From Natronomonas marina (GTDB taxonomy: Archaea; Halobacteriota; Halobacteria; Halobacteriales; Haloarculaceae), in contig NZ_CP101154.1 in the NCBI RefSeq assembly GCF_024298905.1, positions 3,560,932 through 3,624,931 of the forward strand: a DNA stretch of 64,000 bases. The letters are read 5' to 3'. Made by a program: the position numbers and the translations under genes. Positions 20,659 to 23,370 of the stretch are shown here, piece by piece. Within the stretch, counting starts at the first letter, position 1; every line of letters begins with the position of its first letter. Below the pieces are notes generated by a model. The model worked only from the letters and a program-made list of their open reading frames with translations, made no database searches and was not told the origin of the DNA.

Positions 20659-20979
20659 GCGGCGCAGAGGTGGGCACAGTAGCGGTCGAGAACGGGAGAA
20701 GGGAACATACGCTCGGAACTCGTTTCGATCGAGATCAGCGGAGTCGAGACGGTCTCGTGACACGAACGGTACTCGTAGGCGACGTGGTGCGGCCAGCACG
20801 TCACACAGACTACCCCTGACCAACTACGAAAACCGCGAGACGGCAGAGGGCGGCGACATGACTCCAGTTCTGTTCCAGTTTCGAGGCCCGTCCGACGAAA
20901 TCGAAAACAGCTCTTTCAGCGCCGCTAACGGCGAGGAACAGCAGAAGCTGGTTCTGCCACAGTTCGACTGAAAACGTAG
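20659..20979. other. Intergenic stretch with a possible 37-codon ORF next to tRNA-Tyr
   Basis: No convincing full gene. An ATG at 20858 opens 37 codons ending at 20971, preceded by GAGG at about ten bases; its product (MTPVLFQFRGPSDEIEN...) has haloarchaeal-looking acidic composition and the frame stays protein-like for about a dozen codons upstream. It ends nine bases from the 3' end of tRNA-Tyr. It may be a small gene or the tail of a decayed one. Confidence 0.25.
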
Positions 20980-21053
20980 TCCGCCCTCCCCGATTTGAAC
21001 GGGGGACAAGTCGATCTACAGTCGACTGCTCTACCAGTCTGAGCTAAGGGCGG
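20980..21053 (-). tRNA. tRNA-Tyr (anticodon GTA)
   Basis: 74-base cloverleaf read on the minus strand. The acceptor stem CCGCCCT pairs with AGGGCGG, with discriminator A. The anticodon stem GTCGA/TCGAC encloses the seven-base loop CTGTAGA, giving anticodon GTA. The T arm carries GTTCAAATC between a CCCC/GGGG-type stem. C1-G72 is the archaeal tyrosine identity pair. No intron and no encoded CCA. Confidence 0.93.
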
Positions 21054-21193: not shown

Positions 21194-21754
21194 ATGAGCA
21201 AGATAACGTTCCGGGCGGACGACGACCTCGTTCGCCAACTGGAGGAGTTCGACGCCTCCAAGAGCGAGGTCATGCGCCAGGCCCTCCGGGCGTACCTCGA
21301 CGGGAACGAGGAAACGCCCGTAAACGCGGGTGAGCGCTCTGTAAGCGCCGGGACGGGGCCGTCGACCGCCGAGGAGTCGCTCGACGACATCATCGCCGAG
21401 CGCGTCGACGCCATCGTCGCCGAGCGACTGGAGGGGTCGTTTACGCGTCGAGAACCCCAGGACGTGAACGTAAACATCACGCTGGATGGCGATTCCGACA
21501 GCGTGTCACACGAGACGGGGGGCGAGCGTAAGACAGAGGAGGGGGAGCGCGAAAACGCGTCCGACGCGACGGCCGATACGTGTAAACAGTGCGGCGAGGA
21601 CCTGCCGCCGTCTGCCGTTTACTGCTCCAATTGCGGCGAGAAAGCGTCCCACAGAGTGTTCTGCGAGTGCGGGGACGAACTCCGCTCTGACTGGGGATTC
21701 TGCCCGAGTTGTGGCCGTCGGACCCCTGCAGCCGACGTGTTGAGCGACTCGTAA
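21194..21754 (+). CDS. cdrL: CdrL-like ribbon-helix-helix regulator with double zinc ribbon
   Basis: 186 residues. Residues 1-45 (KITFRADDDLVRQLEEF, SKSEVMRQALRAYL) form an RHH/MetJ-Arc DNA-binding domain, which dimerises to insert a beta sheet in the major groove. A variable acidic linker with a predicted helix (AEESLDDIIAERVDAIVAERL) follows, and residues ~129-180 carry two zinc ribbons (CKQCGED...YCSNCGEK and CECGDEL...FCPSCGR). This is the architecture of CdrL, encoded upstream of cdrS-ftsZ2 in haloarchaea and known to act on that operon. Unusually for this genome, the gene uses GTA and AAA/AAC codons that create repeated GTAAAC motifs. Confidence 0.85.
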   Translation: MSKITFRADDDLVRQLEEFDASKSEVMRQALRAYLDGNEETPVNAGERSVSAGTGPSTAEESLDDIIAERVDAIVAERLEGSFTRREPQDVNVNITLDGDSDSVSHETGGERKTEEGERENASDATADTCKQCGEDLPPSAVYCSNCGEKASHRVFCECGDELRSDWGFCPSCGRRTPAADVLSDS

Positions 21755-21823
21755 ACGCCGAAAATACGCTATACGGGTCGGTAAACGACGATACTACGAA
21801 TTTGTCTTACGCCGCCCCCAACA

Positions 21824-21829
21824 TTTAAG
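21824..21829 (+). promoter_or_regulatory. Predicted promoter of the cdrS-ftsZ2 operon
   Basis: TTTAAG in the context CCAACATTTAAGTTCC is the best TATA box in the 233 bp between cdrL and cdrS, with a purine/A BRE-like stretch before it. Transcription should start near 21850, leaving a leader of roughly 135 nt before cdrS, which unlike most genes here has its own Shine-Dalgarno sequence (GAGGGG at 21973-21978). Confidence 0.6.
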
Positions 21830-21855
21830 TTCCTACCTTCTGTGCATACATCTGC

Positions 21856-21874
21856 GTAAGACGGTACGTCTTAC
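21856..21874. promoter_or_regulatory. Inverted repeat, candidate operator at the cdrS-ftsZ2 start site
   Basis: GTAAGACG-GTA-CGTCTTAC: two perfect eight-base arms around three bases, placed about 5-25 bases after the predicted transcription start. Single half-sites of the same GTAAGAC sequence occur at 21528-21534, 21804-21810 and 21957-21963. The position and symmetry suit a dimeric repressor such as CdrS or CdrL. Confidence 0.5.
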
Positions 21875-21987
21875 ATCGGGGGCAATCGGCGCGTGTGCGC
21901 CGCTGTCGCGGCCGTTTTCCCGGTGTAAACGCGAACCAGTTCGCGTGTGCACCGCCGTCTTACCCACAAACAGAGGGGAAGAACAAT

Positions 21988-22161
21988 ATGGAGCGTGTGA
22001 CACTACGGATCCCGAAGCAGCAGATCGAAGAGGTCGAACGCATGGTCGATACGGGGGAGTTCCCGAACCGGAGCGAGGCGATTCGCTCCGCCGTGCGTGA
22101 GATGTTGAACGAACAGGACGCCGAAGCACGGGACGAGAACCGCCCGTGGGCGAAGGTGTAG
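21988..22161 (+). CDS. cdrS: CdrS, short ribbon-helix-helix cell-division regulator
   Basis: 57 residues, almost entirely one RHH domain: [17 protein letters not shown] (strand and helix 1) and [14 protein letters not shown] (helix 2), with a charged tail. It ends three bases before ftsZ2, so the two are one operon, as described for cdrS-ftsZ2 in Halobacterium and Haloferax, where CdrS is a global regulator of division genes. GAGGGG lies about ten bases before the ATG. Confidence 0.92.
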
Positions 22162-22164
22162 ACG

Positions 22165-23370
22165 ATGCAGGACATCGTCAACTCCGCACTGGAGAACGCC
22201 GAGGCCGAACAGCGGGACATGGACGCCGACCTCGACGGCGACGGCGCCGAGTTCGGTGACCCCCGCATCGTCATCGTCGGTGCCGGCGGTGCCGGCAACA
22301 ACACCGTCAACCGCCTGTACAACATCGGCGTCGACGGCGCCGAAACCATCGCCATCAACACCGACAAACAGCACCTGCAGATGGTGGAAGCCGACACGAA
22401 GATCCTCGTCGGCAAGTCCCTGACCAACGGGCTCGGGGCCGGCGGTGACCCTTCGATGGGCGAACGCGCCACCGAGATGGCGCAGGGCACCATCAAGGAG
22501 GTCCTCGGCGAGGCCGACCTCGTGTTCGTCACGGCCGGCATGGGTGGCGGTACGGGTACCGGCGCGGCGCCGGTCGTCTCGAAGATCGCCAAAGAGCAGG
22601 GCTCCATCGTCGTGGGCATGGTCTCGACGCCGTTCAACGTCGAGCGCGCCCGCACGGTGAAAGCCGAGGAAGGCCTCGAGAAGCTGCGCAACGAGGCCGA
22701 TTCCATCATCGTGCTGGACAACAACCGCCTGCTGGACTACGTCCCGAACCTGCCCATCGGCAAGGCGTTCTCCGTGATGGACCAGATCATCGCCGAGACC
22801 GTCAAGGGCATCAGCGAGACCATCACCCAGCCGTCGCTCATCAACCTGGACTACGCGGACATGACCTCGATCATGAACCAGGGCGGCGTCGCGGTGATGC
22901 TCGTCGGCGAGACCCAGGACAAGAACAAGACCAAGGAGGTCGTGAACGACGCGATGAACCACCCACTCCTGGACGTCGACTACCGCGGTGCATCCGGCGG
23001 GTTGGTCCACATCACGGGGGGTCCCGACCTCACGCTGAAGGAGGCCGAAGGGATAGCCCAGAACATCACCGAGCGCCTCGAGGCCTCGGCGAACGTCATC
23101 TGGGGCGCCCGCATCCAGGACGAGTACAAGGGCAAGGTCCGGGTCATGGCCATCATGACCGGCGTCCAGTCCGCCCAGATCCTCGGCCCGACCACCCAGA
23201 AGCAGGCCGACGCCTCCCGGGAGGCCATCGAGGGCGTCGAGACCGAAGACGAGTTCGCCTCGACGCCGCCCAGCGGGTCCGAGTCCGGTAGCGGCGGCTT
23301 CGGCGTGGGCGAAACCGACGGCGGTCGCTCGGAAGTCGAGCAGAACAACGGCCTCGACGTAATCCGATAA
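22165..23370 (+). CDS. ftsZ2: Cell division GTPase FtsZ2
   Basis: 401-residue tubulin homologue that polymerises at mid-cell. It has [14 protein letters not shown] for nucleotide binding, the GTP signature [11 protein letters not shown] near residue 128, and the T7 loop NLDYADMTS needed for GTP hydrolysis. The N-terminal [13 protein letters not shown] extension and the C-terminal NNGLDVIR tail are those of the FtsZ2 class, which in haloarchaea drives constriction while FtsZ1 serves as scaffold. About 45 Gly/Ser/Glu-rich residues link core and tail. Cotranscribed with cdrS. Confidence 0.97.

Follow-up and report, generated by a model that had tools for sequence, protein, structure and literature searches.

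The window, a 64-kb stretch of the Natronomonas marina genome, carries three successive open reading frames on the plus strand. The first, cdrL (21194-21754), encodes a 186-residue protein with an RHH_1 domain, the CdrL_M middle region (PF24252) and a double zinc ribbon (DZR) above the Pfam cut-off. It is followed by cdrS (21988-22161), encoding a 57-residue RHH protein (RHH_1, E 1e-8), and directly 3′ of this by ftsZ2 (22165-23370), which was assigned from the conserved cdrS-ftsZ2 synteny and its similarity to the second FtsZ in the genome. A tRNA-Tyr gene is located upstream of cdrL on the minus strand (20979-21053). In cdrS leaders generally, a purine stretch, (g)GGGAA, is conserved 8-13 bases 5′ of the ATG (here 21973-21981); it is not an obvious Shine-Dalgarno sequence.

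Between cdrL and cdrS we read the palindrome GTAAGACGGTACGTCTTAC on the plus strand at 21856-21874. It consists of a left arm GTAAGAC (21856-21862), an N5 spacer and a right arm GTCTTAC (21868-21874). Single copies of the half-site flank it: U (GTCTTAC, minus strand, 21804-21810) lies 52 bp upstream of the palindrome and upstream of the TATA box, D2 (GTCTTAC, minus strand, 21957-21963) lies 31 bp before the cdrS ATG, and a plus-strand GTAAGAC inside cdrL (21528-21534) spans the codons CGT AAG ACA for Arg-Lys-Thr. A degenerate plus-strand copy, GTAAAC (21925-21930), matches in position the half-site D1 of other lineages. The preliminary description had placed the palindrome, the three single copies and the TATA element TTTAAG (plus strand, 21824-21829) correctly throughout. 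The 64-kb window contains 5 copies of GTAAGAC, compared with 3.5 predicted by shuffles, and all 5 fall inside 436 bp around the cdrS promoter, where ∼0.02 would be expected by proportion. Allowing up to two mismatches, the palindrome occurs a single time in the 3.99-Mb genome. GTAAACG motifs also recur between cdrL and cdrS, both here (21764-21794) and in many relatives; they are possibly degenerate half-sites or the site of another regulator.

Here the TATA box starts 32 bp before the left arm, and in most promoters the 5′ T of this element falls between -32 and -34 relative to that arm. The TATA-to-start distance typical of haloarchaea puts the predicted plus-strand transcription start at about 21854, the G of a TGC that is conserved directly 5′ of the left arm when promoters are aligned on that arm. 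The palindrome thus overlaps or flanks the cdrS-ftsZ2 promoter, as is expected of an RHH operator, and its half-sites are short, symmetric and helically spaced, with arm centres 11-12 bp apart and U 52 bp away. In a Haloferax study the bicistronic mRNA is given as ∼1,500 nt and a monocistronic band as 250 nt (PMC8406309). The former fits a leader of this kind if FtsZ2 is taken as ∼400 residues, and the latter is shorter than the about 305 nt expected.

We gathered cdrS loci from Halobacteria genomes and obtained 194 non-identical upstream regions. Every one carried GTAAGAC-N(2-6)-GTCTTAC upstream of cdrS, 189 exactly and 5 with one mismatch. The left arm was identical in 193 and the right arm in 190, and the spacer varied: N4 was commonest, N5 was found in the genus of the window and some others, and N2, N3 or N6 in a few. 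Genome-wide, the pattern was present in 380 of 391 Halobacteria genomes, in exactly one copy in 378, compared with 7 of 391 for a reversed-pattern control. The conservation in other haloarchaea that the preliminary description had suggested checking was therefore found across the class. Its rendering of the repeat needs amendment: a palindrome is present, but the G-N3-C between the arms (equal to N5) is not part of the constant unit. The corresponding form with 8-mer arms and N3 matched only 60 of the 391 genomes.

Exceptions were few. The exact palindrome was present in 77 of 80 named loci; Halobacterium salinarum has one mismatch, and two Haloquadratum have a degenerate right arm (GTATGAC nearby) with the left arm, U and D2 retained. 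Among the 11 genomes lacking the pattern, 5 have the one-mismatch form upstream of cdrS, two are Haloquadratum-like and both retain the left arm, a third belongs to the same genus, and 3 gave no cdrS match. In a separate case (locus L220, genome G372) the palindrome and the start of cdrS are present yet the class-wide protein search returned no cdrS, possibly reflecting a disrupted or truncated frame. Viral contigs contained 56 exact palindromes and no CdrL or CdrS relatives. A literature search combining GTAAGAC with haloarchaea returned nothing related. A 14-base pattern could arise by luck in one genome, but its presence once upstream of cdrS, with a variable spacer, in nearly all genomes, together with the counts for the promoter collection and the control pattern, refutes chance or neutral sequence similarity, to which we attach practically no probability. 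Being kept almost letter for letter and once per genome marks the palindrome as a control site of the operon, and we are almost certain that cdrS-ftsZ2 is genuinely controlled through this conserved element. The sequence comparisons likewise support the earlier proposal of a conserved RHH-type operator, built from GTAAGAC half-sites, at the predicted start.

The additional half-sites that had been noted (U, D2 and the copy within cdrL) also proved to be real parts of the element, as judged by conserved position, density and codon-level conservation; the half-site and codon counts that follow are of sequences and not of independent events. Exact GTCTTAC occupied the U position (-51 to -54) in 86 of 194 promoters. 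Elsewhere the U slot holds GTCATAC or GTATGAC in many promoters, and 40 have a plus-strand copy at -59 to -67. A second full palindrome at U was considered and rejected, since half-sites were no more frequent at the partner positions, 11 bp away, than at control offsets. Exact GTAAGAC was found at the D1 position (+62 to +68) in 108 of 194 leaders, from many other lineages, and exact GTCTTAC close before the ATG (D2) in 174. Half-site density was 19.4 per kb in promoter plus leader compared with 0.68 per kb further upstream, the latter coming largely from cdrL. The cdrL copy sits in the variable linker, in most cases 284-391 bp before the palindrome. Of 110 Arg-Lys-Thr triplets in 174 cdrL genes, 100 were encoded as CGT-AAG-AC and 109 had CGT for Arg, whereas CGT makes up 18.5% of all Arg codons. 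The intra-cdrL half-site is therefore conserved as nucleotide sequence.

The preliminary description had linked the site to the two RHH proteins encoded here, CdrL and CdrS. For CdrL this agrees with published ChIP-seq in Halobacterium, where the region upstream of cdrS-ftsZ2 was the only reproducible site (PMC7439475), matching the single copy per genome that we find in 378 of 391 genomes. In the H. salinarum promoter we find a plus-strand U site, the one-mismatch palindrome GTGAGAC-GGTC-GTCTTAC, and both D1 and D2. The ΔcdrL strain is reported to have had second-site mutations (PMC7439475). For CdrS the link fares less well: published ChIP-seq in Haloferax lists 18 CdrS sites, among them ftsZ1 at -50, and omits the cdrS promoter (PMC8406309), even though Haloferax species do carry U, the palindrome and D2, and most also D1. 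This omission is not final because the protein used for ChIP was an N-terminal FLAG fusion, with the tag beside the DNA-reading strand.

CdrS could nevertheless read the palindrome as an autoregulatory operator, with CdrL as an accessory protein using the same half-sites. The palindrome is accompanied by cdrS in almost every genome, also where cdrL is missing, and in the CdrL-less genomes inspected the first nine residues of CdrS, MERVTLRIP, are unchanged. We also read 25 promoters of ftsZ1, a CdrS target, and nearly all contained a GTCWGAC-N4-GTCWGAC-like pair just upstream of the BRE/TATA, which is where a site near -50 is expected; this pair is a probable CdrS site. In loci L241-L270 it is located about 60 bp before ftsZ1. 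Its half-sites share the N4 geometry of the palindrome and differ from GTAAGAC by one base, and the variants GTCATAC and GTATGAC occur at both cdrS and ftsZ1 promoters. On the other hand, GTAAGAC itself was absent from the 25 ftsZ1 promoters. In the Natronomonas marina genome no exact GTCWGAC-N3-5-GTCWGAC was found. We consider CdrS an unlikely, though not negligible, candidate for the role of main reader. The location of CdrL at cdrS by ChIP, the published CdrS sites lacking cdrS and the absence of GTAAGAC from ftsZ1 promoters together favour CdrL, and we read the palindrome as the CdrL operator, with CdrS less likely as its reader. In genomes that carry cdrL, CdrL is probably the principal reader.

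CdrL, so far the only protein known to occupy this promoter, cannot, however, be the sole reason for the palindrome. Ten genomes from about seven lineages (G004, G006, G064, G119, G354, G207, G314, G096, G101 and G171) gave no CdrL match at E 0.001 while keeping cdrS, several of them on a single contig. We read nine of the CdrL-less loci (L153, L155, L165, L117, L147, L078, L075, L082 and L064) and found no cdrL adjoining cdrS and no masked bases there. cdrL thus appears to have been lost in about seven separate haloarchaeal lineages, whereas a 2020 paper states that every sequenced member of the Halobacteria encodes it (PMC7439475). A site serving CdrL might be expected to vanish with the gene, which is not what was seen: the exact palindrome and D2 were kept in all nine loci, and only exact U and D1 were mostly gone. 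Exact U was present in 2 of 9 loci lacking cdrL compared with 146 of 185 of the rest, and exact D1 in 1 of 9 compared with 109 of 185, comparisons that ignore phylogeny. One genus (g34), in which neither species has cdrL, still carries two exact half-sites upstream. Because it outlives cdrL, the palindrome must have a further function or reader, be it CdrS, an unrecognised protein or the leader RNA. The preliminary description had missed both this persistence and the covarying pairing of the leader RNA.

In the leader the half-sites run in the order + - + -, so that several pairings are possible. The bases flanking the half-sites covary for two of these, which join the left arm to D2 and the right arm to D1. 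When changes were counted on a tree built without the leader, double changes preserved pairing in 15 of 35 cases for left arm-D2 and 37 of 81 for right arm-D1, compared with 8 of 148 and 43 of 311, respectively, in pooled shifted registers. The alternative pairings gave 1 of 20 (left arm with right arm) and 5 of 52 (D1 with D2). Disjoint sister pairs provided a clear signal for left arm-D2 (8 of 12) and a weak one for right arm-D1 (12 of 46 compared with 10 of 45 at offset 1). We rejected a D1-D2 hairpin for lack of covariation, and likewise a self-hairpin of the palindrome, which showed no covariation across the arms although it is the predicted fold of the leader in the window (0.98). Comparison with Rfam yielded no credible family match, the best being at chance level. 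In the leaders of L117 and L147 the right arm is immediately followed by a hairpin whose two strands show matched changes, GAGCCGC/GCGGCTC compared with GGACCGC/GCGGTCC.

The repeats might accordingly act mainly in the mRNA leader, as a nested, branched structure controlling stability or translation. The only covarying arrangement would join the left arm, located at the 5′ end of the mRNA, to D2, just before the ribosome site, with right arm-D1 paired as well. In calculated pairing probabilities, D2 outcompetes the right arm as partner of the left arm in 155 of 194 leaders, and in Halobacterium a post-transcriptional level of control has been proposed for this operon (PMC8303175). A purely structural stem would be expected to vary, yet the 7-mers hardly do, so RNA structure alone does not explain them. 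Moreover, two of the half-sites, U and the one within cdrL, are not part of the leader; D1 and D2 are both missing from some deep lineages (f11) that have the palindrome and a U-type site; D2 is missing from several f8 members; and the window's own leader favours the self-hairpin. We therefore judge a mainly RNA-level role improbable, although part of the sequence constraint may be RNA pairing. More speculative still, and given very little weight here, is that the same 7-bp duplex is used twice, as DNA operator (U and palindrome) and as two leader helices copying that operator, such that the transcript competes for or signals to the RHH regulator in a feedback on FtsZ2 synthesis. The best reading is a start-site operator overlaid on a structured leader.

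For the start-site operator we envisage an RHH dimer of CdrL on each 7-bp half-site of the palindrome, which would cover the transcription start; we infer that CdrL contacts the GTAAGAC letters themselves. The U half-site is some five helical turns further upstream, beyond the TATA box, and U, the leader copies and the intra-cdrL copy could recruit or tether further dimers, possibly forming a loop. CdrL bound at the start would block initiation of transcription, thereby setting the levels of CdrS and FtsZ2. Repression by start-site occlusion is the likely mode of action.

The site bears on how archaea set the level of their tubulin-like division protein. With one almost unvarying operator copy per genome, the role of CdrL becomes testable by a few point mutations in Haloferax or Halobacterium, and because the palindrome survives where cdrL has been lost, a second and widespread reader is predicted. 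Its overlap with covarying leader helices suggests that control of transcription and control at the mRNA level are combined in one 130-bp element.

The closest known system is the CdrSL network of Halobacterium salinarum, with the same genes, the same promoter and a single genomic target; the available text of that report gives no motif, half-sites or base-level site (PMC7439475), and these are supplied by the present analysis. The Haloferax volcanii CdrS motif, reported from 18 ChIP sites, likewise pairs an RHH regulator with a symmetric site, and the ftsZ1 pair has the same geometry. It differs by one base per half-site, if its identity with GTCWGAC is accepted, and in having many targets and lying upstream of the promoter and not at the start. 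In Sulfolobales, aCcr1 and SegB are also RHH proteins in archaeal cell-cycle genes, but the proteins, motifs and division machinery are different; SegB binds imperfect palindromes upstream of its own operon and many chromosomal sites (PMC12284271).

The bacterial RHH repressors Arc, MetJ and CopG bind as dimers to at least two short half-sites about one helical turn apart. The layout of their operators is similar to that described here and the sequences are different. In contrast to them, the cdrS palindrome is positioned at an archaeal start site, is unique in each genome and overlaps leader-RNA helices.
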